A DNA stretch of 64,000 bases from Sycon ciliatum (lineage: Eukaryota; Porifera; Calcarea; Leucosolenida; Sycettidae): positions 22,773,627 to 22,837,626 of the forward strand of contig NC_088655.1 in the NCBI RefSeq assembly GCF_964019385.1. The letters are read 5' to 3'. How positions within the stretch are numbered: position 1 is the stretch's first letter; each line of letters opens with the position of its first letter. Below the pieces are notes generated by a model. The model was not told the origin of the DNA, did not search any database, and saw nothing but the letters and a program-made list of their open reading frames with translations. The position numbers and the translations under genes are program-made. Positions 1 to 51,016 of this stretch are shown here, one piece after another.

Positions 1-92
1 CTTGTCAGTTTGAGCACTCTGGCAAGGTACGTTCGGGCCTGATTGGAAATTTTTATTTCCATTGCTATCAGGTTCGGCCTCATTTCTCTGTG

Positions 93-138
93 CTGCGCTG
101 ATGAGTTCAAAAAGAACGAAACAGCATGCTGTCCGCAG
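93..138 (+). ncRNA. Hammerhead ribozyme, type I, array copy 1
   Basis: Stem I is ctgcg (93-97) with cgcag (134-138). The core CTGATGA (98-104) is followed by stem II gttc/gaac with an aaaaa loop, then GAAA (118-121). The short stem III is acag/ctgt with the loop catg. The predicted cut follows GTC at 133. All universally conserved core bases are present, so this copy is predicted to self-cleave. The short stem III is typical of Penelope and retrozyme hammerheads. Confidence 0.92.
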
Positions 139-319
139 ATTGAGTATTTCGCTCCTGCTCTTGTAGCAGTTGAGCACTCTTGCGTGGGGTAGTGCCTTTG
201 CTGTTTGCGTTATGCAGAGCTCACTGACTTGTCAGTTTGAGCACTCTGGCAAGGTACGTTCGGGCCTGATTGGAAATTTTTATTTCCGTTGCTATCAGGT
301 TCGGCCTCATTTCTCTGTG

Positions 320-365
320 CTGCGCTGATGAGTTCAAAAAGAACGAAACAGCATGCTGTCCGCAG
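320..365 (+). ncRNA. Hammerhead ribozyme, array copy 2
   Basis: Same core and stems as the first copy, with the cut predicted after position 360. The sequence just downstream turns into (TA)n at 371-385 instead of continuing the unit. The core itself is intact. Confidence 0.92.
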
Positions 366-521
366 ATTGAGTATATATATATATGTGGGGTAGGGCCTTT
401 GCTGTTTGCGTTATGCAGAGCTCACTGACTTGTCAGTTTGAGCACTCTGGCAAGGTACGTTCGGGCCTGATTGGAAATTTTTATTTCCATTGCTATCAGG
501 TTCGGCCTCATTTCCTCTGTG

Positions 522-567
522 CTGCGCTGATGAGTTCAAAAAGAATGAAACAGCATGCTGTCCGCAG
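522..567 (+). ncRNA. Hammerhead ribozyme, array copy 3 (stem II variant)
   Basis: Stem II reads gttc/gaat, so the pair closing onto the core is G-U instead of G-C. The CTGATGA, GAAA and GTC elements are intact. The cut is predicted after 562. Activity may be lower than in the copies with a full stem II. Confidence 0.87.
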
Positions 568-749
568 ATTGAGTATTTCGCTCCTGCTCTTGTAGCAGTT
601 GAGCACTCTTGCGTGGGGTAGTGCCTTTGCTGTTTGCGTTATGCAGAGCTCGCTGACTTGTCAGTTTGAGCACTCTGGCAAGGTACGTTCGGGCCTGATT
701 GGAAATTTTTATTTCCATTGCTATCAGGTTCGGCCTCATTTCCTCTGTG

Positions 750-795
750 CTGCGCTGATGAGTTCAAAAAGAACGAAACAGCATGCTGTCCGCAG
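750..795 (+). ncRNA. Hammerhead ribozyme, array copy 4
   Basis: Complete consensus core with stem I ctgcg/cgcag, stem II gttc/gaac and stem III acag/ctgt. The cut is predicted after 790. Confidence 0.92.
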
Positions 796-977
796 ATTGA
801 GTATTTCGCTCCTGCTCTTGTAGCAGTTGAGCACTCTTGCGTGGGGTAGTGCCTTTGCTGTTTGCGTTATGCAGAGCTCACTGACTTGTCAGTTTGAGCA
901 CTCTGGCAAGGTACGTTCGGGCCTGATTGGAAATTTTTATTTCCATTGCTATCAGGTTCGGCCTCATTTCCTCTGTG

Positions 978-1023
978 CTGCGCTGATGAGTTCAAAAAGA
1001 ATGAAACAGCATGCTGTCCGCAG
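978..1023 (+). ncRNA. Hammerhead ribozyme, array copy 5 (stem II variant)
   Basis: It has the same gaat variant in stem II as the copy at 522-567. The two types alternate along the array (gaac, gaac, gaat, gaac, gaat, gaac), which suggests that the array grew partly by duplicating a dimer. The cut is predicted after 1018. Confidence 0.87.
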
Positions 1024-1205
1024 ATTGAGTATTTCGCTCCTGCTCTTGTAGCAGTTGAGCACTCTTGCGTGGGGTAGTGCCTTTGCTGTTTGCGTTATGC
1101 AGAGCTCACTGACTTGTCAGTTTGAGCACTCTGGCAAGGTACGTTCGGGCCTGATTGGAAATTTTTATTTCCATTGCTATCAGGTTCGGCCTCATTTCCT
1201 CTGTG

Positions 1206-1251
1206 CTGGGCTGATGAGTTCAAAAAGAACGAAACAGCATGCTGTCCGCAG
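1206..1251 (+). ncRNA. Hammerhead ribozyme, array copy 6 (stem I mismatch)
   Basis: The 5' strand of stem I is ctggg instead of ctgcg, which puts one mismatch in the five-pair stem. The catalytic core is intact and the cut is predicted after 1246. This is the last complete hammerhead before the array is broken at 1411. Confidence 0.85.
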
Positions 1252-1407
1252 ATTGAGTATTTCGCTCCTGCTCTTGTAGCAGTTGAGCACTCTTGCGTGG
1301 GGTAGTGCCTTTGCTGTTTTCGTTATGCAGAGCTCACTGACTTGTCAGTTTGAGCACTCTGGCAAGGTACGTTCGGGCCTGATTGGAAATTTGTATTTCC
1401 ATTGCTA

Positions 1408-1668
1408 TCAGGTTAGCATAACTCCGGCCAAGTTGAGTAGGTGGGAGTGTTTCAATTCGCTTGAGCCCTTCTCATAGCGCACCTCCCTCCTGAGTGCATC
1501 TTCCAACTTACTTTTGATCTCACGACTACGGATGATCCGGCCTTTGCACTTTAAAACATAATTCAGGTCCTGAATTAGTCGGTGGTCCAGTCGCCGTTTT
1601 AAATATTTAAATAGAGACGTAGGCGAACAAAATTTATATACACACAACAACAAGGTTGTCAATTTCAT
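1408..1668 (-). pseudogene. Possible N-terminal part of a Penelope-like ORF
   Basis: An 86-codon frame on the minus strand starts inside the inverted Penelope terminal repeat and runs away from it. Its product is charged, with blocks such as YLKRRLDH and KLEDALRREV. In Penelope-like elements a terminal repeat is commonly followed by the ORF of a tandem or inverted neighbour, so this may be the start of a second, reversed copy cut at 1411 by the retrozyme array. I do not recognise the sequence itself, and the assignment rests on position only. Confidence 0.4.
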
Positions 1669-1972
1669 AATACTAAAAGCTTTTCACCCATTTTCATCAG
1701 TAGTTACATGGGAATGAGCAAGAATGAAAACGAAGCCAGAATTTATACTGGGGGTAGAGAATCAGCAAGAATATTCTTACGCGCCTCAAGTTCACACTAC
1801 ACTACCATAAGAATGTATGGAGCAGTGGAAAAATGCGGGAAACAACACATGAGGGGAATGCAGTACCAGAACAAACACGTGATAAAGTTGTCAGTCCGGT
1901 TGCAGCTTGAACAGCCGTAGCACCTTGATGTGCTTCTTTTGTCGACACAGCTCTGGCCTCAAACTGCGAAGA
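1590..1972 (-). repeat. Left inverted terminal arm of the Penelope-like element
   Basis: This arm is the reverse complement of the segment from about 2957 to 3899 once the insertion at 3226-3788 is removed. It includes an antisense copy of the last codons of the GIY-YIG domain (the RSLRPELCRQKKH region), so it derives from the element's own 3' end. Inverted terminal repeats of this kind are characteristic of Penelope-like elements. The arm also holds the uninterrupted version of the target into which the pogo-type element at 3226 inserted in the other arm. Confidence 0.85.
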
Positions 1973-1988
1973 GAGGGACAGAGTAGCC

Positions 1989-3039
1989 ATGGGTTCACCC
2001 TTGGGCCCCGTGCTAGCCAGTATCTTTGTTGGATATTTTGAGAACACAATTCCAGACAGTCATTGGCCCCAATTCTATAGGCGTTATGTGGATGACACAT
2101 TCGCAGCATTTCACAACCGGAAACTGGCATTGGAATTCTCTGAGCATTTAAATAATCTTCACCCAGCTCTCCAGTTTACGATGGAGGAGGAGAATAATGG
2201 AGAATTGCCGTTTCTTGATGTACTGATTAAGCATTCTTCCACAGAATTGCTCACCACAGTATATAGAAGGCCGACGTTCACAGGTCTTTACACCCGCTGG
2301 GACTCGTTTTGTGACACTAGAAACAAAATCAATTTGATCAGATCATTAACTTTCAGAGCTAAAAACATCTGCTCACCATCACTATTATCAGCTGAAATTG
2401 CTAAGCTAGAGGATATTCTGTGTTCTAACGGTTACCCACTCAAAGTACTCAAGCGAGTCATGACAAGCGTTCTTGAACCTAGCCCAGATACAGCTTCTGC
2501 TCAACTTGAATCTGCAACGCGTATTATCACAAAATTGCCGTGGAAAGGGCAAAATTGCATTGCCTTCCGCAAAAAGATTAAAGCTGCAATTTTGAACTGC
2601 TATCCTACAGTATCCCCCATTGTAATTTATACAACCAGACCCGCATTCAGGTCTATCGCGAAGGATGTTTCACCAACTCTTGAAAATAGTAATTTTATTT
2701 ATAAGTATGCGTGTCGCTGTGAGCGGACGTACGTTGGTGAGCGATTCATGTCAGCGATTCTCGGAAAGGATCAAGCAGCATATCCCAGACAAGCTGTACA
2801 AGAAGCCGCCTGACAAACGTGTGGCAACAAGTGATAGCGCCATCACAAAGCATTTGCAAGCGCAACCTGAATGCATCCCGCAGGAACGCAACAGCAGCTT
2901 CAGTGTCATCACACCAGCCCGGAACAGCGCGCACCGATTAACACTGGAGGCGCTGTACATTCGCAGTTTGAGGCCAGAGCTGTGTCGACAAAAGAAGCAC
3001 ATCAAGGTGCTACGGCTGTTCAAGCTGCAACCAGACTGA
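1989..3039 (+). pseudogene. Penelope-like element, reverse transcriptase plus GIY-YIG (5'-truncated, one frameshift)
   Basis: The first frame (1989-2813) opens at the reverse-transcriptase motif MGSPLGP and continues to the catalytic YVDD, so the fingers and first catalytic Asp of the palm are missing. It then covers the thumb and linker and enters the GIY-YIG endonuclease at YKYACRCERTYVG. A frameshift at about 2740-2755 moves the rest into the next frame (ending at 3039), which carries RFSERIKQHIPDKL, the SAITKHL segment and the LEALYIRSLRPELCRQK ending normal for the family. The domain order RT then GIY-YIG is diagnostic of Penelope-like elements, which use the endonuclease to prime reverse transcription. 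The first frame starts directly at the junction with the inverted arm, so its Met is part of the RT motif and not a true start. The copy is dead but clearly related to a mobile source. Confidence 0.9.
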
Positions 3040-3899
3040 CAACTTTATCACGTGTTTGTTCTGGTACTGCATTCCCCTCATGTGTTGTTTCCCGCATTTT
3101 TCCACTGCTCCATACATTCTTATGGTAGTGTAGTGTGAACTTGAGGCGCGTAAGAATATTCTTGCTGATTCTCTACCCCCAGTATAAATTCTGGCTTCGT
3201 TTCCGTTCTTGCTCATTCCCATGTACAGTCAAATCTGCCGTTAGCGACCTCTGCTGTAGGCGACCATCTACCGTTAGCGACCGATTTTCCGTGCACCGAC
3301 GGTTTCACATACAAACTGATCTGTCCAGAGCGACCATCTGCTGTGCGCGACCAGCGACCACGATTACATGCACGGTGGCTGCATTCAAATCTGCTGTAAG
3401 CGACCGCGACCCAGGTTCAGTCAGGTGCGAAACTGTACTTGCCAGTGCGCTGTCAACTGCAAAGTGTGAAAATGCGCTGTCTTGCAAGTGCGATCGACTG
3501 GCGCCTGGCCTGTACCATGTGTACTGAGGCTGTGCTGTAGCTCTCAAGTCCAGGCAGTGTCGATCTACTGCCGTGTCGCATACGCGTACTATACGGGTAT
3601 GGTCGTCGTTGAATATCCAATAAAATTAATGATATTAAAAATCACATTATTCTCGTCGATTTGAGTACATGGAAGCATAATATATCTGGTATGCCGGATT
3701 TACCATACATCTGCCGTAAGAGACCATCTGCCGTAAGCGACCGCTTTTTCTTGCACCAAGGGGCGGTCGCTTACGACAGATTTGACTGTAACTACTGATG
3801 AAAATGGGTGAAAAGCTTTTAGTATTATGAAATTGACAACCTTGTTCTTGTGTGTATATAAATTTTGTTCGCCTACGTCTCCATTTAAATACTCTATTT
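2957..3899 (+). repeat. Right terminal arm of the Penelope-like element
   Basis: It begins within the last codons of the GIY-YIG domain, continues through about 250 bp of terminal repeat and, after an inserted element, ends near (TA)n and (GA)n at 3900-3930. It matches the arm at 1590-1972 in reverse complement. A CTGATGA...GAAA pair at about 3797-3815 could be a remnant of the hammerhead reported in Penelope terminal repeats, but no convincing stem II can be drawn there. Confidence 0.85.
3226..3788. mobile_element. Non-autonomous pogo/Tigger-like DNA element with TA duplication
   Basis: The ends are inverted: CAGTCAAATCTGCCGTTAGC at the left and the complement of a close match at the right, flanked by TA at 3224-3225 and 3789-3790. 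The left Penelope arm contains the unoccupied site catgTAactactg, and the right arm reads catgTA-element-TAactactg, which proves insertion with a 2-bp TA duplication. The interior repeats the phrase 'taagcgacc' several times in both orientations and has no transposase frame. TA duplication and CAGT ends fit the pogo/Tc1-mariner group. Confidence 0.9.
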
Positions 3900-3930
3900 A
3901 AATATATATATATATAGAGAGAGAGAGAGG

Positions 3931-3953
3931 CGAAACAGCATGCTGTCCGCAGA
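3931..3953 (+). ncRNA. 3' half of a hammerhead ribozyme (broken)
   Basis: The segment cgaaac, stem III acag/ctgt and the post-cleavage strand cgcag match the array units, but the CTGATGA half is absent; (GA)n lies upstream. It is followed by (TA)n at about 3960-3983. It cannot fold into an active ribozyme alone. Confidence 0.8.
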
Positions 3954-3984
3954 TTGAGTACATATATATATATATATATATATA

Positions 3985-4213
3985 CTCAATCTGCGGACAG
4001 AACTGTTTCGTCCTTTGTGGACTCGTCAGCGCAGCACAGAGGAAATGAGGCCGAACCTGATAGCAATGGAAATAAAAATTTCCAATCAGGTCCGAACGTA
4101 CCTTGCCAGAGTGCTCAAACTGACAAGTCAGTGAGCTCTGCATAATGCAAACAGCAAAGGCACTACCCCACGCAAGAGTGCTCAACTGCTACAAGAGCAG
4201 GAGCGAAATACTC
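3985..4213 (-). mobile_element. Single retrozyme monomer inserted in a (TA)n tract
   Basis: Read on the minus strand, one unit of 229 bp starts at gagtatttcgctcc and ends at the hammerhead and cgcagattgag, with (TA)n on both sides (3960-3984 and 4214-4226). Its length equals one array period, so this is a monomeric insertion and not part of an array. It is oriented opposite to the units at 1-1411. The flanking TA repeats are the likely target and its duplication. Confidence 0.8.
3991..4034 (-). ncRNA. Hammerhead ribozyme, reversed monomer copy
   Basis: On the minus strand the order is ctgcg, CTGACGA, stem II gtcc/ggac with loop acaaa, GAAA, a short stem III in acagttctgt, GTC, cgcag. Stem II differs from the array copies on both strands in a way that keeps pairing (gttc/gaac against gtcc/ggac). 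That covariation supports a selected fold. Predicted active. Confidence 0.9.
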
Positions 4214-4226
4214 ATATATATATATG

Positions 4227-4660
4227 ATACTGTAGTAGCAAAAGTTCAACAGGGTCAACGCACCGTCCGACCTAGCTACGACGGTCACTGATTGTAGTGG
4301 ACTGGACATGTTATTAAGGGAGTCGTAAACCTACGACTTCCTGGTGCATGTACTTGTACTTGTAATTGTAGAACATGTACAACTGTATGGAATTTGATGC
4401 GGACAGGCGGATTATTCCAATTTTGTGCGATTCGCATGCAATTTGCCTCGAATTATGCGATTATTCGATTTTGGTAGGAATTATGCGAAAAATTATGCTA
4501 GCATAATCTGTCAAGGCCTACCTCTCTCTCTACCTTACTTTTTCGATATATTATTCCGTGCTGCTTACCTTTGGCTATGATAAGTCTGGTGAGTTAGTGT
4601 AGTACCTCCAATTTTTATTTTTATTTTCAATTTGGAGTGGAATAAAGAATCATAATAATA
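4227..4660. other. No gene seen; AT-rich repeat remnants
   Basis: No coding frame or splice-flanked exon was found. The phrase 'aattatgcga' recurs several times at 4430-4500 and ends near ctgtcaaggccta, which could be one end of a degraded hAT-type MITE; the other end was not found. Confidence 0.4.
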
Positions 4661-6245: not shown

Positions 6246-7484
6246 AACGCATATGGCCGATTGGTTTGCAGGCCTGCCTGCGAATCATAAGGTCCCGAGT
6301 TCAAGACCCGCGCTGGTAACAGGGAGCGTGTAAAAAGACTTTTTACGCGTGCTGAACTGCGCCGACACCCACAATCAACTGGGTACTCACAGCTCGGAGT
6401 GAGAATAACAAGGATGCAGTTTACAGGGTTATGGGCCGTTACACGCCCGATTGGTTGAGAGACTAACCTCCTCTCCCCTGACTCACTTGTGAGGTCTGCA
6501 TTCGCCACTAAGGTTAAAGGGGAAGTTAAGGCAAAAATTAAAATTTCACCAGTTGTAGTCTTCGGGGTGCTGAGTCGAATGGTCTTGGTCCGAGGAAGCT
6601 GAGACGCTCCCTTCCTACTTGAATCCCAATCGAACTCGCGCACTTCCACCGAAACTGGGTGACTGCGCCCTACGAGATGGGGATTTGTATGCAAAATGTC
6701 ACTAAAAGCGCCATTTCGTTCTTATAAAAGCACGGATGACCGCGATTGGCCCATATATTGTAGTCTTTTGGACGCTGAGTCGACTGGTTTTGGTCCGAAA
6801 AGGCTGCGATGCAGCGTTCCTCCTTTATTCCCAATCGAACATGGTTGAAGAAGTGGTCACGTGGTCCTGGGTGCCCAAATCACCTGGTCACCACGCCAGC
6901 AGGTGACAACTTTCACACCAAGGTTCAACTCGAGTTCAACTCGAGTGACAGGTCTGCACCCAAAAAAGGTCAAACAGGCTAGTAAGTTGTACCCTGCAGG
7001 CACGGTGACCAGGTGACTGGTGTACGCAGGAGCACGTGACCGCTTCTTCAACCATGTTCGATTGGGAATAAAGGAGGAACGCCGCATCGCAGCCTTTTCG
7101 GACCAAAACCAGTCGACTCAGCGTCCAAAAGACTACAACATATGGGCCAATCGCGGTCATCCGTGCTTTTATAAGAACGAAATGGCGCTTTTAGTGACAT
7201 TTTGCATACAAATCCCCATCTAGTAGGGCGCAGTCACCCAGTTTCGGTGGAAGTACGCGAGTTCGATTGGGATTCAAGTAGGAAGGGAGCGTCTCAGCTT
7301 CCTCGGACCACGACCATTCGACTCAGCACCCCGAAGACTACAACTGGTGAAATTTTAATTTTTGCCTTAACTTCCCCTTTAATAGGCATAGTGGTGGCCT
7401 GCGGATGCGAAGGCTAGTTTGTGTGTTTCTGAACATTCAAGCGATGCCGACGCGGATCCCGCGAATATTATTATTTATTATTTA
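6246..7484 (+). mobile_element. tRNA-derived SINE, interrupted by a foldback element
   Basis: The head carries RNA polymerase III box A (tggccgattggttt, about 6254) and box B (gagttcaagaccc, about 6298) at tRNA spacing. The body follows, and the tail is (ATT)n at 7468-7484. The flanks are identical: TTGTCTCTTTCC at 6234-6245 and 7485-7496, a 12-bp target duplication. Removing the element at 6518-7378 leaves a SINE of about 375 bp. The duplication surrounding both halves proves that the foldback element arrived second. Confidence 0.88.
6518..7378. mobile_element. Foldback MITE with ~365-bp inverted repeats, TTAA-flanked
   Basis: The left arm (about 6518-6885) and right arm (about 7015-7378) are near-perfect reverse complements, beginning AGGGGAAGTTAAGGC. 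They surround a spacer of about 130 bp. TTAA flanks both ends (6514-6517 and 7379-7382), which suits piggyBac-type integration, although the end sequence is not the usual CCCT and TTAA could belong to the repeat itself. No transposase frame is present. The transcript would form a very long hairpin. Confidence 0.85.
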
Positions 7485-8826: not shown

Positions 8827-9295
8827 GACACAAATTACACATAACACGAAGCTGGTTTTTGAAAATTGTAAGTCGTGTATCTGCCCCATTTCTTCTTTAT
8901 GACTTGCACAATACACCAGTCTTCCTAAACAACACATTTATAGCAATGGTTAAGTACCATAAGAGAAGTACAGCCAGTGATATTGTCATGTTGAAATACT
9001 ACAATTTTGACACAAATTACACATATCACGAAGCCAGGTGTTGACAATTGTAAGTCGTGTATCTGCCCCATTTCTTCTTTATGACTTGCACAATGGTCCA
9101 GTCTGCCTAAATAACACATTTATAGCAGGGGTTATGTACCATATTAGAGAAGTACAGCCAATGATATTGTCACGTCTAAATACTACAATTTTGACACAAA
9201 TTACACATAACACGAAGCTGGTTTTTGAAAATTGTAAGTCGTGTATCTGCCCCATTTCTTCTTTATGACTTGCACAATACACCAGTCTTCCTAAA
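8827..9295 (+). repeat. 182-bp tandem repeat (2.6 copies)
   Basis: The phrase gacacaaattacacat falls at about 8827, 9009 and 9191, giving an exact 182-bp period. The third copy is broken at 9295 by the LINE tail. Its continuation (taacacatttatagcaggggtt) resumes at 11728 on the far side of the LINE, so the LINE landed inside this satellite. Confidence 0.88.
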
Positions 9296-9451
<156 letters not shown>

Positions 9452-11727
9452 AATTTATTATTTTGATAGGGAAGGCCCTAAGACGTTGCCGTCTTGTTAC
9501 AGGTAACCCTAAGTGCTCTTTACAGAGCGAAACAAAAACGGATAGATGCTCAACCTGACGACACGAGACAGGCAGAGAATTCCACCTATCAGCGCCAAGG
9601 AAAGAAATAGAGAACATGCCATATCTAGTGGTAGCAGCGGGCAAAGAAAGTGAAGAGAATGATTGCCCTCTAGTGCGCCTCTCGGTGCAAGTAGCAGCCG
9701 ACTGGAGGGTAAACATTGAGGAAAGAAGAGGACTTGTAAGCTGATGAATACAGCGGAAAACAAAAATAAAAAGCCTCAAGTTGAGACGAGATTCGAGGTA
9801 GTATAACTTAGCGTGCCGCAAAACAAAGACAGTCGGGGTACGGCGAGGGAGACCAAAAACCTGTTTCATGCTGATATGACTTAAAGTAACAAGGCGAGAG
9901 TATAAAGATGGTGTAAGACAGTGAGCATAGGAGTTGCTGGCGTATTCAATAGTGGATTGGATGAGGGATAAATAAAATATTCGCTTAGTTGTGTGGTCTA
10001 CTGTACGGCGGCAGCGGCGGAATGCTCCTATCCTCTTATAAACAGATGTACATACATGGTTGACTTGATTCTCAAAGGTGAGGTGTTGGTCAATAATGAG
10101 GCCAAGATAACGCACTGTGGCAGAAGGTCGAGTATCGACACCACCGCATGCAATGGTAAGATCCGGCGGAAGAGGCAGAGCCTTCTTCCGAAGCACCATG
10201 AACTTCGTTTTCTGGGCATTCAAGATGGGACCAATGCTTCCAAGGTACGTATTTAGTCTGTTCAACTCACTTGTCAACTTGTGCTGAAGTTCTCCAGTAG
10301 ACTGACAGTGTATATAAAAGGCGATATCGTCAGCATACTGTTGGGACTCTGCGTGGCGAAATACTCCAGGGACATGTCGCACGTACAAAGAGAATAGCAG
10401 AGGCCCTAGCACCGACCCTTGCGGAACGCCTCGTGTACAATGTGTCTCGTCTCCTCTGTTATTTCCAATTTTCACCTGTTGTCGTCGACCCTGGAGATAG
10501 CTGGAGAACCACTGTAGTGCTACTCCGCTTATGCCAATAGCTTGAAGCTCGTTAAGTAGTAGTTCATGGCGTACCCGATCGAAGGCCTTGCTCATGTCCA
10601 CGAGTACAACCCCGTAATACTCGCCCTTGTCCACACTCATCAGCGGTTTACTGCGTGAGTTAACGCATCCTCACAGGAGTGCCCACTGCGGTAGGCGAAT
10701 TGCTCGTCTGGGAGAATACGAAGCTCAGCGTGATCTTGAAGGAACCTAATCATTTGCCGATGTACTACCTTCTCAAGGATCTTAGAAACAATCGGCAAAA
10801 GTGAAACGGGGCGATAATTCGACGCTTCAGATTTGTCCCCTGACTTGTGGACAGGACACACTGTAGCCAATTTGTACACGTCTGGCACCATTCCAGTACT
10901 CAAGGACTCGTTAATGATCTGCGCTATGGGACCTGCAGCGGCAGGCTCACAGAGGCGTAGGAGCAGAGGAGGAATGTCATCCGATCCAGCTGCCTTGGCA
11001 CAGTTCAAATGCTTCAACAGATCGCTTATCTCCAGAGCTGAAACGGCACGAAATTCTTTAAAAGAAGGGGCGTCTGCGTCAGCTGTTGTCGAGATGTCAG
11101 GTATTAGGTTGCCCAAGGGTGGGCAAGGATTAGGATCAGTGACAATGATAAAAGAAGGGGCGTCTGCGTCACCTGTTGTCGAGATGTTAGGTATTAGGTT
11201 GCTCAAGGGTGGGCAAGGATTAGCATCAGTGACAATGGACGCAAATGTGGCACTCAGATCGCCTAACGTAGCTTTTGGTTGTTCACGGACAAAGTTGCGC
11301 CCTGTGAGCGAGTTTAGAAGCGCCCACTGTTGCCTTGGCTTATTCTTCACATCTCGAAACTCCCTGTTGTAATACTCTCGTCTCAGCTTTCTATTTTAAC
11401 AGTGTGCCTTCCCTCCTTGTTGCCCTGTACTGTTGTTTAACAGATTCATTTCCGGGATGTTTCAAAACCTTCGCGTGGAGGTGCTTGCGCCTTTCTAACA
11501 ACCTTCGGAGTTGATCGCTTACCCAAGGCTGTGGTTTAGGCTTAGCCCTAGCACTGATGGTAATTTGTTTCACAGGCGACTTTTCGTTCAGAACTCTTTT
11601 GCATAGAATAGAGAAGCTAGTTGCCATTGTGTTAACGTCTGGTGAGCCATCTGGGGGTACTCTGCGGAAGGCGGAATCAGTGAGTGCATCAAGCATGGAA
11701 TCGGTGCATTCGTCTGCAGGCAGTTTA
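9452..11727 (-). pseudogene. CR1/Jockey-like LINE, 5'-truncated, nearly complete RT
   Basis: The minus-strand frames at 11391-11735, 10640-11350 and 9291-10640 join into one reverse transcriptase. The first holds the linker between endonuclease and RT. The second holds the start of the RT (AAGSDDIPPLLL, NYRPVSLLPIVSKILE). The third holds VDMSKAFDRV, the GVPQGSVLGPLLF motif and the catalytic YADD, then the thumb and C-terminal tail. Two frameshifts separate the frames, one of them at overlapping stop and ATG (tgatga near 10640). The second frame carries an internal tandem duplication of about 84 bp (11070-11240). The endonuclease domain is absent. The phrase TAAATA at both edges may be the target duplication. 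All key RT residues remain, so the loss of coding capacity looks recent. Confidence 0.85.
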
Positions 11728-36849: not shown

Positions 36850-37760
36850 TAGTTCCGTATTTCCACTGATGATCGGAGCGTGAAAATCGATTTTGGAAAC
36901 ACACAAAACCAAACCTTGAACAAATTGTCATGTTGCGTGGTGATGTCTGCGGCATTCATCCTTTTCATAGCTATTATTAAACTTTTATCTCCACGTAGAT
37001 TATTTGTATAGAAAAATATAAGGCACCCATTTTGATAGTTTTTGATAGTCCAGGGGATGGCCCACGCCTGGTAAAGAGAATAGAGAAAAGAAAAGACGTT
37101 AAATGGCGATATTGCCTGGAGCGAATCCATGAACAAATTGTGGGCAGAGTCACGAAATGGCTTGGACGTTAACAAGTCACTGCAGCTGCAAGAGGTGATT
37201 GTGCTTCTGCTGGCCCCGAAACAAACTCGCTGTCCGTGCCAACACGGGGAAACATGCCAGAATATGGTCAACAATCTCCCCCCGGACCTCCGCACGAACG
37301 GCACTCGTCAACCACGGAAGTGTCGCCAATGACTGACCTCTGGTAGTTCCTGGTATAAACCACCTGATCCTGAGCAGCAAATACAGATGACTTAGCAGAT
37401 GGACGCAATGTGGCAGACTTTAAGAAGGAGAGAGGCATGTCCAATACACCGTCACTCGGCTGCCAATAACGACCATGCAGGGGCTTCTGCCGCAGAGAAC
37501 CTTGGGTGGTGGTTACTATAGCAGACTTAAACAACATCAGTTGTTTCACCTCCGATGTCCGGGATGTTGAAATGCTCCATAGCCGGGGCTGCCCGGGAGA
37601 TGATCGACTTTGTAGGTGGGAGATTTTCGGGATGAGAATGCAGAGCAGCAATCAGCGGCAGGTCAGAGTGCACCTGGAGGCACCTAGACAGGCGGATGTA
37701 CTTCCTCTCCAGCAGGTGCTCAACCGATATAATCCCTCGGCCGCCCTCAGACTATTATTA
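36850..37760 (-). pseudogene. LINE C-terminus with zinc knuckle (second REL-endonuclease family)
   Basis: Minus frames contain SAIVTTTQGSLRQKPLHGRYWQ, SLLKSATLRPS-like sequence, SVFAAQDQVVYTRNYQRSVIG, CRSCGGPGGD and, in another frame, EIVDHILACFPVLART. C-x2-C followed by H-x3-C is the knuckle that precedes the restriction-like endonuclease in NeSL/R2-type LINEs, and AIVTTTQGSLxQ...LHGRYW is a phrase I associate with such elements. Three frameshifts are visible. It differs from the family at 16097-17094. The segment 36718-36850 has no feature. Confidence 0.55.
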
Positions 37761-43849: not shown

Positions 43850-44030
43850 TATTATTATGTGCTTGTTCGCGTAGACATCAGCATGGCCTGCAGCTGCAAT
43901 AATGGGCATGCAAATCATGCAAACCAGCTAAAATGTTCGCATAAGCCACTTCGAATAGATACAAAAGACCACAACAGTTTCAGAAAAAGAAGAAATATGC
44001 GAAAAGAAGACAAAAACTCCGTATATATAA
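43850..44030 (-). mobile_element. 5'-truncated (TAA)n-tailed insertion in the exon 6 intron unit
   Basis: On the minus strand it ends gatgtctacgcgaacaagca then (TAA)n. The intron unit is split: ctttatccgtata before and ccgtatatataattattattcc after, which suggests a target duplication around ccgtatat. Same tail as at 21729 and 44740. Confidence 0.65.
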
Positions 44031-44065
44031 TTATTATTCCTTTTATACGCAATCAATCACCTCAG

Positions 44066-44125
44066 GAAATTCACCGACGTCGGGTGGTAGCATTGCACCG
44101 CCAACAACCCAAGCACCTTCAATTG
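44066..44125 (+). CDS. Ig/mucin gene exon 6: Pro/Thr-rich segment (repeat unit 4)
   Basis: The acceptor atcacctcag and donor G|gtaaga bound 60 nt, phase 1-1, coding for NSPTSGGSIAPPTTQAPSI. It is the last recognised mucin-like exon before the first Ig exon at 51412. Splice partner phases agree (G|TA gives Val). Confidence 0.7.
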
Positions 44126-44283
44126 GTAAGACCTTGCACTTTTTTGTGTGAAAATTTTAGGAGTTAAAAAGTCAGTCAACGTCTGTAAAGAGAAAAATAT
44201 CAAACGGAATTAACTGAATGCATCCTCGGTATTGTAGGCAAATGCGTTTGCCTGAGAGCGCATCATGGAGATGCCTAATAGGC

Positions 44284-44535
44284 TGGACTTTATACAGGGA
44301 GTGTTGTCCACATAAAGACTCTTGTTGATTTAAAAGTTTGGACTCTGTACAGTGGATTTTAGACCAATGGACTCTGTATAGGGGTGAAGCCAATTGGCTG
44401 GACTCTATACAGGGAGTGATGTCCATCAAAATATTGAGCTCACAGTTGATCCCAAGTTTGGACTCGGTACAGTGGATTTTGGACCAATGGACTTTATATA
44501 GGGGTTGGACATCATACAGGAGCTGGACGCTCTAC
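44284..44535 (+). repeat. Two tandem copies of a ~120-bp unit
   Basis: tggactctatacagggagtg, then gtttggactc(t/g)gtacagtggattttgg and accaatggact..tatataggggt occur twice. Confidence 0.8.
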
Positions 44536-44739
44536 TGAGTCCAACATTTTAAGGCCGCAGATTCCTGTTTTGCAGCTCACCGATTGCAGACGTTCTGTGG
44601 ACTATACCTGTGCACTACTAGTGCATCCTGTGTCGAACATTGACAAACGGAATAAGTGGGCGAGGGATCTTTTACTCTCTCTCTAAATTTCCCCATATTG
44701 ACATCTTTCTCAGTCAATGGTAGATTCATGTAACTACCA

Positions 44740-45140
44740 TTATTATTGTTATTTTGCTTGTTCACCTTGACATCACCAAACAAGCTTCGCTAGTCTTCGC
44801 ATAAGCCAAATGAACAAAAGAAATGAGGAACGAGCGAGGCCTATAGAGGTTAACACACGCGTGCAACTGCAGAATAGGCAAAAGGAATGTACATGGACAT
44901 GACAAGACAAGGAATTGTGTGTTGCTCCCTACGTGGAAGCTTGCGCTATTCCTGCCGACTTGAATTCTCATTTGACTGACTCACCACTGCCATCCAGAGC
45001 ACACGAGAAGTCCATCGAACCGTCCACTCGGCAAACCTGCAAGAACGCACCACTCCCTGCTCAATACACAGTGTTTCGGGGAATTCACCCCTCATCAGTT
45101 GCACTTGAGCAGGCTGAGGAAGATTTTGCCTAAAGAGCAC
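44740..45140 (-). repeat. Dispersed repeats: (TAA)-tailed end and the 28720 family
   Basis: 44740-44905 matches 21745-21850 (cttcgcataagccaaatgaacaaaagaaatga). 44905-45140 is the reverse complement of the repeat at 28720-28990. Confidence 0.65.
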
Positions 45141-45261
45141 CACTTATAATTATAGTGCTCTCCAGGCACAAACGTCACCAGGGATACCAAATGACAGAGA
45201 CGATCCGTTTCTAGCGCGACAAACACCTCCTGAACACCAGATAGCAGCGTGAGTCAGTGTC

Positions 45262-45365
45262 GCTCATGGAGGTGTTGAACAAACGCTGAAGGCCGTTGGC
45301 CACTCACAACGCTGAATGTCGTTGGACATTCACAACGCTGAAGGCCATTGGCCATTCACAACGCT
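45262..45365 (+). repeat. ~32-bp minisatellite with internal dyads
   Basis: Three copies of cacaacgctgaaggccgttggcca-like units. Each holds a small inverted repeat (ggccgttggcc, tgtcgttggaca) whose stem changes on both sides between copies and stays paired. Confidence 0.75.
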
Positions 45366-45550
45366 GTTGCCTCCACACCGTCTAATTCGCAAGCCTGCGC
45401 TGGGGACAACAATGTGAAGAAGAGGTTGGTGCGACTTCGGCGATAATTGGGGAATTGTGTGTTGCTCCCTTCGTAGGAGCTTGCGCTATTCCTGCAGACT
45501 TGAATTCTCACTTGACAAGACAGTCCTAAAAACACATGAAATGTCAACTT

Positions 45551-45576
45551 GGCCGAAACAGTATGGCTGTCTGCAT
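45551..45576 (+). ncRNA. 3' half of a hammerhead (left end of the retrozyme)
   Basis: Only ggcc, GAAA, stem III and GTC|tgca are present. The element begins at the 3' strand of stem II, so the CTGANGA half is missing. Confidence 0.8.
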
Positions 45577-45770
45577 CATTGAGTATTTCGTTCCTCGATT
45601 TCGATCTTGTAGAGCACTCTCAATAGGACGCACTTGCGCTGGTTAGCTTTATGCTTTGCCCGCTGCTTGTGGCAGCTTGACAACTCTCAGCGCCAGTACA
45701 TCGAGCTGTACTAATGTCTATGATTCTCGTAGCCATGGCTGACAGTTCAATCCTATTTTAAGCTGGGAGT

Positions 45771-45815
45771 TGCACTGACGAGGCCTCAGTGGCCGAAACA
45801 GTCTGGCTGTCTGCA
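45771..45815 (+). ncRNA. Hammerhead ribozyme of the second retrozyme
   Basis: Stem I tgca/tgca, core CTGACGA (45775-45781), stem II ggcc/ggcc with loop tcagt, GAAA (45795-45798), stem III acag/ctgt with loop tctgg, cut after GTC at 45811. All three stems differ in sequence from those of the array hammerheads but pair fully. Predicted active. Confidence 0.92.
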
Positions 45816-45943
45816 TCATTGAGCATTTCGCTCCTCGATTTCGATCTTGTAGAGCACTCTCAATAGGACGCACTTGCGCTGGTTAGCTTTATGCTTTGCC
45901 CGCTGGTTCTGGCAGTTTGAGCACTCTCAGTTAAGCTCTGAGT

Positions 45944-45988
45944 TGCACTGATGAGGTCTCATTGGCCTAAACAGTCTGGCTGTCTGCA
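45944..45988 (+). ncRNA. Mutated hammerhead of the second retrozyme
   Basis: Same layout with CTGATGA, but the second core block reads TAAA instead of GAAA. That base (G12) is the general base of the reaction, so this copy should be inactive. Stem II ggtc/ggcc pairs with one G-U. Confidence 0.85.
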
Positions 45989-46005
45989 TCATTGGAATGT
46001 CAACT

Positions 46006-46465
46006 ATTTACTTCAACAAATAAAACTGGAAATGGATAAATACAGCAATCATAACATCTGCTGTACCGTACCATGGAAATCCAAAATCAGCTTAGGACGA
46101 ATTTGGAAACACAAGTTCGCAAGCTTTGAATTTCTTCAGAAACGGTATCAGAATGTAATTCAACGGAATTTCAACCTCATTCATATGTTTCTTTTTCATA
46201 CTCCAGCCTTGGTCATTGTATCAATCCGTTTTTTGGTGCGTGTTTTTGGCCGTGAAGGCGAGACCCCAGGTGGGCAGAGTCACACAATGCCCCACCATCC
46301 CTGCTGCGTCTCAGTGCAGCCCCTGCTCAGTACAGTAGCTGTCAAGTTTGTCCTTATCTCATTATTTTCGAGCTGGGAATGTGAACATAGTAAAAAAATA
46401 TTTCGGCACATCATTCATGCGTACTGGTTGACGACTATGGACAAAAAAGCACCAGGATGATCAAA
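46006..46465. other. Intron sequence, nothing specific
   Basis: A 169-codon frame at 45951-46460 begins inside the retrozyme and shows no domain. The phrase with ggccgtgaaggcgagacccc near 46245 recurs at 43630. Confidence 0.4.
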
Positions 46466-46740
46466 ATGTTGGGTTAGCTTTTGGGCTAACCCTAGTTAGC
46501 GATAAGACCGATGCGCTGCTCTCTATCTCATGCTAGCTGCGATCAAGCTGGCTTTACACGTGCACTCAACTGCTGCCCATGCGCGCCCAAATCGCCTTGG
46601 GTAGCTCTTGCTGCGCTGACTTTGGCTTGCGCTTTCCTTTGCAGTGTCACTGAGCAGCAACCGGAAATTGTTTGTTGAGAATAGAATTAATTATTCAGAC
46701 TCCTTGTAGATTCCTCGCAGCCGTTTACTGCACGACAAAC

Positions 46741-47836
46741 ATGTTGTCTACCTCTGAAGCACGCCGTATGAACGTGTCGGACTTGCGGGCCGAGCTGGAA
46801 GGCCGTGGGCTGAATTCGAGCGGAACAAAGCCCCAGCTTCTTGCCCGTTTGCTGCTCAGTATCCAGGACACGTCGAGCTCGGCGGCACGGGAACCTCGAT
46901 CTCCGTCGGCCACGCCATCCTCGCGGCAGGAGCACGAGCAGGAGCAAGAGCAGGATCTGGAGAGTGCTGCAGCAGCTTCTCCGACTCCCCAGATCCCGGA
47001 CCGGAGCAGTAATGACGATTTGCGCCAGTTTGTGCGGCAGGAAGTACATTCCGCTGTCACCGTTGCCTTGTCGGAGGCGATCGCTCCAATGCTGGCCACC
47101 ATCACTGCCCCTGGATCCGCTGGAACTCAACCTTCGGCGGAGTCTTCCAACGCTGGTAATCTCTCCGTTCCCCAGACTATACGAGAGAAAATATTGAAGG
47201 GTGACTTTGTAGATTTCACCCAGCTGCTGCCCGCCGGATACTATCGCCACCTCGTATTCGGCCCCACGCCAGCTTCAGCTGCAGTTCAGCAGTGGCGGCC
47301 AGTCTCTGGAGGTGGTGGAAGGTGGAGCGGCGCAGCCCGTTCGTCAACGCGTCCACTACTTGCCGACATGGCTGGAGGCATGGACTCTCTTCATGAACGT
47401 CGTGTGTTCTGCCAACCCGTCCCGCCTGCAGGAGATGCTCTCCTACCAAGCCACCATAGTTGCAGCCAACAGGCAATACTATCCGGAGGCTTGGCTGTCG
47501 TACGACACCCAGTTTCGCTCTGCCATTTCTGCTCAGCCAGGCAAGCGCTTTGACGTCATCGACATAAATCTGTGGCAAATGTCCGTGACTAGCCGATCAA
47601 GGCCCACATGTGAGTCCTGCCGCCTCATCCATCCCGAAAGCGGCCAGCGTCCCTTTCGTCCGCAACGTAACAACCAGCAAGCCTTCAATGGAGTCCGTAC
47701 GGTGTCTAATGGCCAACCGATCTGCCGGAACTTCAACGCTGGGCGTTGCAGTCTCAGCACGTGCAAGTACGCCCATGTCTGCAACCGCTGCGGGTCCAAG
47801 GACCACAACGGATCTAAGTGCGGTAGGCGCCAGTAA
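46741..47836 (+). pseudogene. Gag-like protein with SAP domain and zinc fingers (one frameshift)
   Basis: The first frame (from ATG 46741) begins with a SAP domain, MNVSDLRAELEGRGLNSSGT then KPQLLARLLL (residues about 9-40), which usually binds DNA. A low-complexity Glu/Gln and Ser region follows, then a helix-rich segment. A frameshift near 47300 leads to the frame ending at 47836, which holds the capsid-like part (LPTWLEAWTLFMNVV, YQATIVAANRQYY) and two zinc motifs: CRNFNAGRCSLSTCKYAH (C-x7-C-x4-C-x3-H) and CNRCGSKDHNGSKC (C-x2-C-x4-H-x4-C). I chose the ATG at 46741 because it lies just before the SAP domain. The shift may be mutation or assembly error. Confidence 0.82.
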
Positions 47837-49690: not shown

Positions 49691-51016
49691 TATAGCCTTG
49701 ACATACAGGTACCGATTGTCATTGCTAAATTGCCGTATTGAGAACCTGCGTTGGATTTCATCCACCTGCATGCCTACCTTTATCCATCTCGTGCCTTAAT
49801 CACTTGTTCTTAGCTCTCGTGCATTGGTGGTGAACGCTTGCTGGGGTGCCGTGTGCTGGTTTTCTGGGAACAGCTTCCTTCAACTGGTTGCTTTGCTGCT
49901 ACTACATGTATCTCTGCTTAAAATTGCATACTATTGGTCGGCTGTTTGCGACGCCAATCAGTAGTCATTGCACCCGGTCGCGGGTACTATTGCCGCTCAA
50001 GCATGAGCAATTGCTTTGGCCGTTTGCAACGCCAACTGCTTCACCCTGGTTGGCTGTTTGCAACGTCGATCAGGGAACTTTGCACCCGGTCGCGGGTACT
50101 GCTGCAGCTCAGTCGTGAGCGATCACTTTGGCTGTTTGCAACGCCAATCACTTCACCAGTTGATCGAAACCAGCACACTGGTGTACCCCAATCATCCTTG
50201 TGCGGTGTTGTGAGAATACGTGGGTATGCATGCAGCTTTGCTCTGTGACTTTCCATTGCATGTAGTCACTTGGCTCTCCCATTTCCTATACACTGCTCTG
50301 ATGCATTCGGGTGCAAGCGCTAAATGTTGGGTTAGCTTTTGGGCTAACCCTAGTTAGCGATAAGACCGATGCGCTGCTCTCTATCTCATGCTAGCTGCGA
50401 TCAAGCTGGCTTTACACGTGCACTCAACTGCTGCGCATGCGCGCCCAAATCGCCTTGGGTAGCTCTTGCTGCGCTGACTTTGGCTTGCGCTTTCCTTTGC
50501 AGTGTCACTGAGCAGCAACCGGAATTTGTTTGCCACCCACCCTCCCATTCCCACATTATATAGGTTGGAACAGCTTCCTTCAACTGGTTGCTTTGCTGCT
50601 ACTATCTCTGCTTAAAATTGCATACTATTGGTCGGCTGTTTGCGACGCCAATCAGTAGTCATTGCACCCGGTCGCGGGTACTATTGCCGCTCAAGCATGA
50701 GCGACTGCTTTGGCCGTTTGCAACGCCAACTGCTTCACCCTGGTTGGCTGTTTGCAACGTCGATCAGGGAACTTTGCACCCGGTCGCGGGTACTGCTGCA
50801 GCTCAGTCGTGAGCGATCACTTTGGCTGTTTGCAACGCCAATCGCTTCACCAGTTGATCGAAATCAGCACACTGGTGTACCCCAATTATCCTTGTGCGGT
50901 GTTGTGAGAATACGTGGGTATGCATGCAGCTTTGCTCTGTGACTTTCCATTGCATGTAGTCACTTGGCTCTCCCATTTCCTATACACTGCTCTGATGCAT
51001 TCGGGTGCAAGCGCTA

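Follow-up and report, generated by a model that had tools for sequence, protein, structure and literature searches.

The first part of a 64,000-nucleotide stretch of the sponge Sycon ciliatum (contig NC_088655.1 of assembly GCF_964019385.1, positions 22,773,627 to 22,837,626; the whole stretch is called the window below) carries an array of hammerhead ribozymes. By its sequence the array consists of a metazoan retrozyme without long terminal repeats (LTRs), a class that is already known, and we refer to this element as retrozyme A. What our analysis suggests as new is the way in which retrozyme A moves: copying would start at one set point next to the ribozyme, near a hairpin that is common to hammerhead-bearing elements resembling Penelope-like elements (PLEs). 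Its copies have a fixed 3′ end, variable 5′ ends and target duplications, their 5′ ends do not pile up at the cleavage site, and the hairpin is shared and covaries. We infer self-cleavage, a circle and target priming, and likewise what the hairpin does and which kind of element acts as the driver. In the explanation that we consider best, and probably correct, retrozyme A would be copied by a Penelope-class enzyme from G11 beside the hairpin, round a circular RNA, until a random stop.

Retrozyme A has units of 228 or 226 bp, which occur in tandem and dispersed, with many truncated single copies. The 16-mer CTGTCCGCAGATTGAG, which spans the cleavage and copying-start sites, has 4,422 exact copies in the genome (538 Mb, 313 contigs), while the reversed-pattern control has 0. 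By our own count the 100 listed places of the 16-mer, all on the initial ~18.5 Mb of contig 1, form 71 clusters, or ~3.9 per Mb. Our chromosome sample comprises 60 stretches in order of position, covering 63 of the 71 clusters, with eight clusters outside. L-numbers designate stretches fetched from the genome, and coordinates after a colon are those within the stretch. Several loci were duplicated together with their flanks and are not independent (L010/L011, L015/L019, L061/L062, L112/L114 and L109/L111).

The copying start is seen in the 3′ ends. Among the blocks of retrozyme A with a visible 3′ end in the chromosome sample, 57 of 60 end at unit position 11–17, i.e., 11–17 nt past the cleavage site. 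Since short inserts in this sample were chosen by their 3′-end motif, inserts of at least 244 bp are the fairer test, and 16 of these 18 end in the same interval (two of them, L112 and L114, have flanks in common). The exceptions are L091 (position 36) and L088 (position 54), the latter belonging to an array into which another element has apparently broken and which goes on in L089. The insert boundary reads GTC^CGCAGATTGAG|duplication. Target duplications measure 7–15 bp and the 5′ ends are variable. Of 50 sites, 13 have simple-repeat or TA flanks and were left out of a test for duplications of at least 9 bp. Such duplications are present at 18 of the 37 non-simple sites, whereas re-pairing the flanks 200 times gave a mean of 0.5 and at most 3. 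At 20 hand-picked sites the first duplicated base is T in 15 and the duplication starts with TA in nine, and this T is the base that follows G11 in the retrozyme RNA. On our reading, the primer would have A, in many cases TA, at its end and would base-pair with U12(A13).

The template is reflected in the lengths of 51 de-duplicated inserts, a count that leaves out blocks running off the fetched edge (seven at the 3′ edge), the three blocks with a 3′ end outside position 11–17 (L088, L091 and L099) and repeats of one flank. These lengths fit an exponential with a mean of 209 nt (Kolmogorov–Smirnov p 0.78, with parameters fitted on the same data); 15 of the 51 inserts are longer than one unit, and the distribution is smooth past one unit. 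The 5′ ends are not distinguishable from uniform (Kolmogorov–Smirnov p 0.095), and 0 of 51 lie within ~3 nt of the cleavage site, where 1.3 are expected. Because the lengths fit one exponential past one unit, with no stop at the cleavage site, a template that crosses the cleavage junction fits best, most simply a circle. A cleaved linear monomer would yield just 11 nt from the copying start.

Retrozyme A has two hairpins of the type GCUC-stem-UU-GAGC per unit. They were located in the window with R1, a covariance model of the hairpin built solely from the minimal hammerhead elements described below, the E-values of which are rough:

151–184, + strand: hairpin 1 (GCUC-stem-UU-GAGC-AC), lying 6 nt downstream of the point where copying would start, unit position 18–42; R1 22.8 bits, E 0.005
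580–613, 808–841, 1036–1069 and 1264–1297, + strand: repeats of hairpin 1; R1 22.8 bits, E 0.005 each
219–251, + strand: hairpin 2, of the same type as hairpin 1, with repeats at 420–452, 876–908 and 1104–1136; R1 11.2 bits, E 1.8
648–673 and 1332–1357, + strand: further repeats of hairpin 2, found by pattern only
4171–4204 and 4104–4136, − strand: hairpins 1 and 2 of a reverse monomer; R1 22.8 and 11.2 bits

The pattern GCTC..TTGAGCNC has 18 matches in the window, all in retrozyme A, compared to a mean of 0.78 (maximum 3) in shuffled sequences. In ten family-level sequences the inner stem, which lies outside the search pattern, adds up to 40 contiguous pairs, whereas 20,000 shuffles have a mean of 6.4 and never exceed 22. 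When R1 was run on the window, retrozymes took ranks 1–12 of 14, namely six copies of hairpin 1 (E 0.005), one match in a second retrozyme family, B (0.5), and five copies of hairpin 2 (1.8); ranks 13 and 14 lie elsewhere. On 22 fetched loci, 48 of 49 matches with E up to 0.05 are in retrozymes or minimal hammerhead elements.

These minimal elements, M1–M7, came from a paired-hammerhead scan of the fetched loci and the window, and their stems I and II covary strongly. They are found in L014, L017, L018, L032, L034, L041, L044, L049, L053, L054, L056 and L058, i.e., in loci fetched for retrozyme A or for the PLE P1 described below, so that their TA flanks are biased, and several of these loci are copies of M2. 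Their hammerhead alignment has 12 pairs, with 92.7% of cells paired and seven pairs changed on both sides versus 2.8 when shuffled. A hammerhead covariance model, R2, was built from M elements only because a joint alignment with retrozyme families A, B and C misplaced GAAAC. A scan of 10 loci, nine of them with M elements, at the Rfam gathering threshold gave 0 matches. In six of the seven M families, GCUC-[stem]-UU-GAGC follows on the 3′ side of the ribozyme. The spacing between copying start and hairpin is 6 nt in A and 5–9 nt in B, M1, M2, M3 and M4, as read by eye. The 3′ ends of M elements lie either 35–53 nt after the cleavage site, just before the hairpin (5), or 98–113 nt after it, past the hairpin (12), together 17 of 19, and those of the long form lie 30–40 nt after the hairpin. 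M elements also form opposed pairs joined 5′ to 5′, in which each 3′ end faces outward and lies in a TA tract (L044:3195-3309 and L034:2948-3023). Such pairs resemble those of P1 and fit an enzyme that primes on both strands. Judged by this anatomy, the M elements appear to be PLE-like; their two kinds of 3′ end resemble the two-site tail of published PLEs (PMC11167929, PMC3846280).

We propose the following sequence of events. The transcript of retrozyme A would be cut by its type I hammerheads and the monomer closed into a circle. A Penelope-class reverse transcriptase would nick a T/TA-rich target, and the terminal A (or TA) of the primer would pair with U12(A13) of the retrozyme RNA. Copying would then begin at G11, which lies 11 nt beyond the cleavage site. 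The GCUC-stem-UU-GAGC hairpin, 6 nt further on, would mark the start point, and copying would go round the circle, through less than one turn or through several, until a random stop. The outcome would be 5′-truncated monomers and tandem arrays, with target duplications of 7–15 bp. A wider proposal, on which we are evenly divided, is that this hairpin is a single structured RNA signal used by retrozymes and by hammerhead-bearing Penelope-type elements alike, 5–9 nt after the copying start, and that a start 11 nt past the cut makes only joined RNA, circular or uncut, a useful template. Hammerhead, circle and borrowed PLE enzyme would then be parts of one rolling-circle, target-primed mechanism.

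The hammerheads of retrozyme A in the window are the following:

98–121, + strand: hammerhead core 1; core pattern, Rfam HH9 29.3 bits, R2 18 bits
325–348, + strand: hammerhead core 2; core pattern, Rfam, R2
527–550, + strand: hammerhead core 3; core pattern, Rfam, R2
755–778, + strand: hammerhead core 4; core pattern, Rfam, R2
983–1006, + strand: hammerhead core 5; core pattern, Rfam, R2
1211–1234, + strand: hammerhead core 6, with GGG before CTGATGAG; core pattern, Rfam, R2 12.5 bits, E 0.17
4006–4029, − strand: hammerhead core of the reverse monomer; core pattern, Rfam Hammerhead_1 30.1 bits

A preliminary description of this DNA had counted at least seven hammerheads, and the core pattern and a permissive Rfam search recover them, as six cores on the + strand and one complete core on the − strand (4029–4006). 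The regular spacing of 228 bp given there holds for three intervals, the core spacings being 227, 202, 228, 228 and 228 bp; unit 2 is interrupted at ~373–384 by GAGTA+(TA)n, which we read as an insertion junction. The loose pattern CTGANGA..GAAA has 24 matches in the window, some of which are not hammerheads, compared to a mean of 4.6 and a largest value of 10 in 100 shuffles. The covariance-model search that had been proposed as a check gave a divided result. At a permissive threshold, HH9 is found on all six + copies (23.6–31.8 bits, E 3.7e-5 to 0.016), and the − copy is matched by Hammerhead_1 (E 1.6e-4). At the gathering threshold the whole window has 0 Rfam matches, all its hammerheads scoring below the curated cut-offs. 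R2 detects the six + copies weakly (E 0.002–0.17), and at E up to 10 it lists neither the reverse copy nor family B in the window. A type I core with three helices is present, and one pair of stem II differs on both sides between the subfamilies A1 (UUC/GAA) and A2 (UCC/GGA). Open frames in the + units span 64–74 amino acids, with none longer there in the list of open reading frames (ORFs).

Around the array, the locus is organized as follows (MITE, miniature inverted-repeat transposable element; pLTR, pseudo-LTR; TRF, Tandem Repeats Finder):

1–360, + strand: retrozyme A units, the second of three apparent serial insertions, starting upstream of the window (blastn tiling; L009 for the upstream start)
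361–384, + strand: insertion junction inside the array, CGCAGATTGAG then (TA)n (sequence; block break)
385–1414, + strand: 4.5 retrozyme A units of 228 bp, breaking off at unit position 168, at the border with P1 (TRF, tiling)
1415–1972, − strand: left arm of P1 (pLTR and start of the ORF), inverted (inverted repeats; blastn)
1973–3223, + strand: right arm of P1, a 5′-truncated, frame-broken ORF for a reverse transcriptase and putative endonuclease, and pLTR (ORF list, blastn)
3224–3790, + strand: MITE-like insert with 26-nt terminal inverted repeats, within the P1 pLTR (inverted-repeat scan)
3791–3931, + strand: 3′ end of P1 with tail, running into (TA)n (blastn)
3932–3960, + strand: 29-nt, 5′-truncated piece of retrozyme A, ending at GATTGAGTA (blastn)
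3982–4214, − strand: reverse monomer of retrozyme A, subfamily A2, about one full turn, with its 3′ end in (TA)n (blastn tiling)

The array begins 181 bp before the window (L009:8447), within a TA tract, and has one extra hammerhead there (L009:8554). At both internal junctions, one upstream of the window and one at ~373–384, a retrozyme 3′ end is followed by TA bases and then by the next piece. We read these junctions as traces of three successive insertions into a single (TA)n tract. The reverse monomer is probably an independent insertion, since its stem II reads UCC/GGA and not UUC/GAA. Within the reversed segment at 3931–4213 the complete − core stands, while the supposed half copy (3932–3960) sits on the + strand as a 29-nt, 5′-truncated piece without CTGATGA. 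A PLE is indeed present between the array and the reverse monomer, in the form of inverted arms with a MITE-like insert. The preliminary description had seen monomer, multimer and driver-type element united in one informative layout. We too regard the locus as informative. It does not look like one event, and we read the array, P1 and the reverse monomer as successive insertions into one TA-rich target. The assignment of the array to the retrozymes in the preliminary description is supported, with type I hammerheads, dispersed units of 226–228 bp, multimers and truncated copies, and target-site duplications.

P1 was followed in the best 30 of 141 scored loci, out of 2,919 candidates chosen by similarity; four pairs overlap and are not independent (L033/L034, L041/L042, L051/L052 and L054/L056). 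Many of the 141 scored matches are in long open frames. The ORF of P1 has 838 codons, and two 3′ ends, 28 and 62 nt into the ORF, define an optional tail of ~34 nt. P1 is classified as a PLE on a telomerase-like model of its reverse transcriptase, in which the alignment rows span residues 168–658, and on its pLTRs, one of them inverted, and its tail in the ORF start. Y728, C732, C734, Y738, G740, R749, H753 and E809 in its putative endonuclease region are invariant in 34 sequences, and we take these residues to be a GIY-YIG motif; the Pfam GIY-YIG model has no match in P1. A candidate hammerhead in the P1 pLTR (CTGATGAAAATGGGTGAAA) was rejected, as neither helix II nor helix III could be drawn on visual inspection and R2 lends no support. 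L119 was likewise set aside as a separate, 65% identical PLE: it looks like a decayed relative of P1, and R2 lists nothing in it.

The idea that a PLE drives retrozyme A is supported for the kind of enzyme, with PLE-type priming as the reading we favour, but not for the local copy. P1 and retrozyme A have (TA)n targets in common. The 16-mer is present in 11 of 29 other P1 loci (15 clusters in 109 kb, versus ~3.9 per Mb on the stretch of contig 1 that the list covers), and a P1 end is the neighbour in two of the six sampled TA sites of retrozyme A (L066 and L069). Because both elements use TA tracts, this density reflects a common target and not a common event. In L069, a 26-nt piece of P1 from its first start site is fused to retrozyme A, and the two overlap by CTAT. 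A template jump would leave such a join, although other histories are possible for this single case. The same locus contains tandem 13-nt pieces matching the 3′ end of M1 beside this chimera. At the 29 other loci, 58 of 61 P1 3′ ends are at TA tracts (the stretch tested includes the 14 innermost P1 bases), versus six of 50 sampled inserts of retrozyme A. With these sites and no match to hairpin or hammerhead, P1, although the obvious candidate, is not accepted as the driver.

A different template would be an uncleaved multimeric transcript, with the same internal start on a long linear RNA and no circle. The smooth length distribution past one unit fits circle and multimer alike. Likeness within arrays was compared over the first eight units, in arrays where the exact junction identifies at least two complete units. 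Of seven such arrays in the chromosome sample, five have identical units and two have units that differ at about one position, with a median of 7 between arrays, which speaks for the circle. Mixed units in the window array (mean difference 2.5), L010/L011, L013, L017, L018 and others would be easier on a multimer, a template that we regard as unlikely. Amplification of an ordinary satellite by unequal crossing-over would be in line with tandem 228-bp units and with L013, where an array of at least 21 complete units of retrozyme A fills the fetched 5 kb. Against it speak single truncated copies and a dispersal of loci, about four to the Mb where contig 1 is covered by the list. The satellite-only reading, highly improbable in our view, is contradicted by the duplications and the fixed 3′ ends.

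With regard to the enzyme, a LINE-type (long interspersed nuclear element) rather than a Penelope-like one might mobilise retrozyme A. Duplications of 7–15 bp and 5′ truncation are common to LINEs, both are seen here, and most sites of retrozyme A are not TA tracts. Yet the copying start lies within the RNA and is followed on its 3′ side by a conserved structure, M elements have two-site ends flanking the hairpin, opposed 5′–5′ pairs point their 3′ ends outward into TA tracts (L034, L044), and the single P1–A chimera exists; we hold a LINE-type enzyme to be quite unlikely. It is also unlikely, in our estimation, that the hairpin is kept for another role (circularisation, RNA stability, a promoter or an RNA-binding host protein) and lies close to the start incidentally. 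Such a role would be compatible with two hairpins per unit of which just one is beside the start, and with M elements that can end before or after the hairpin; against it stands the spacing of 5–9 nt across A, B and M1–M4.

Several observations weigh against copying by a Penelope-class enzyme round a circle from a start marked by the hairpin. In the similarity-chosen set, L028 and the duplicates L015/L019 have their 5′ end precisely at the cleavage site, which is what a cut linear RNA would produce. In 15 other arrays, similarity-chosen or from the window, four average at most one difference between units and the rest 1.6 to 20. The hairpins of B and C are weak, with inner-stem pairs numbering 0 in B, 1 in C and 1 in M3, and M6 has no hairpin match. 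One R1 match, L026:2975-3007 (−; 22.4 bits, E 0.01), lies outside any recognised hammerhead element. R1 gives no hairpin match in the P1 loci scanned, and R2 with filters off reaches at best 5.5 bits in P1 (L052:2400-3300), although this M-derived model could miss other hammerhead types. An autonomous PLE with the shared hairpin or the M tail was not found, nor was an ORF linked to M elements, in M flanks that had no systematic ORF search. Only six of 50 inserts in the chromosome sample are in TA tracts, and the junction 1414/1415 joins retrozyme A to P1 in opposite orientation, which falls outside this explanation.

Metazoan non-LTR retrozymes were described in Acropora millepora, Mytilus and axolotl by Cervera and de la Peña (2020; PMC7229834). 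Similar to these, retrozyme A has type I hammerheads in tandem units within 170–400 nt, is dispersed, apparently without LTRs, has a GC content below 50% (A1 47.8%, A2 49.6%; B 49.2%) and duplications of more than 4 bp, and shares its genome with PLEs. The likeness is one of description. Rfam sees retrozyme A only below its cut-off. PLEs or LINEs were named as candidate drivers (PMC7229834), and according to these authors the driver is not given away by any conserved motif (PMC7761336); here, however, a copying start is found together with a hairpin that is common to other hammerhead elements. A description of a retrozyme copying start was not found in the open-access literature searched. According to Frangieh et al. 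(2024; PMC11167929), a PLE copies from two adjacent internal sites, cuts AT-rich DNA on both strands and requires RNA 3′ of the start. This Poseidon element of Anolis (PAc) is comparable in its two neighbouring internal starts, AT-rich targets, hammerhead upstream of the start and need for 3′ RNA. Unlike retrozyme A, PAc is autonomous, and its start lies 111–118 nt into the ORF in an AC-rich stem-loop, whereas that of A lies 11 nt past the cleavage site (PMC11167929). P1 in turn is comparable to Pen2a_Av of Adineta vaga, which has pLTRs, an inverted pLTR and an optional tail in the ORF start (31 bp versus ~34 in P1), and the P1 ends 28 and 62 nt into the ORF resemble its 12/22-codon layout (PMC3846280); set beside Pen2a_Av, P1 is marked by its TA-tract 3′ ends. 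The shared hairpin hints at whose enzymes retrozyme A borrows, and a ribozyme-made circle might help an apparently non-coding element, each turn adding a full unit. Copying start, target rule and covarying hairpin turn the question of the driver into a direct biochemical test.

Further hammerheads lie in the second half of the window:

45550–45995, + strand: retrozyme family B, about two 240-bp units, with a hammerhead core at 45775–45798 (blastn)
45060–45103, − strand: hammerhead D, of which the cleaved strand begins TTGAGCAG; R2 27.7 bits, E 1e-6

Family B is flanked by the 10-bp duplication AATGTCAACT (45540–45549 and 45996–46005) and ends 10–11 nt after its own cleavage site, the 3′-end rule of A. 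At D, R1 lists no hairpin in the window scan, and Rfam at E up to 1 has no match in 44000–47000. A weak, lone hammerhead-like match of R2 is found at 36861–36898 (+; 22.3 bits, E 7e-5). Elsewhere in the window, an inverted repeat at 6514–7382 has 399-nt arms that are 96% complementary, with 71 nt between them. A perfect (TAG)52 microsatellite (9296–9451) lies at the end of the frame 9294–10670 (−), which we take to be non-LTR reverse-transcriptase-like, and two tandem pairs at 49935–50147 and 50629–50851 share a similar 112-bp unit.

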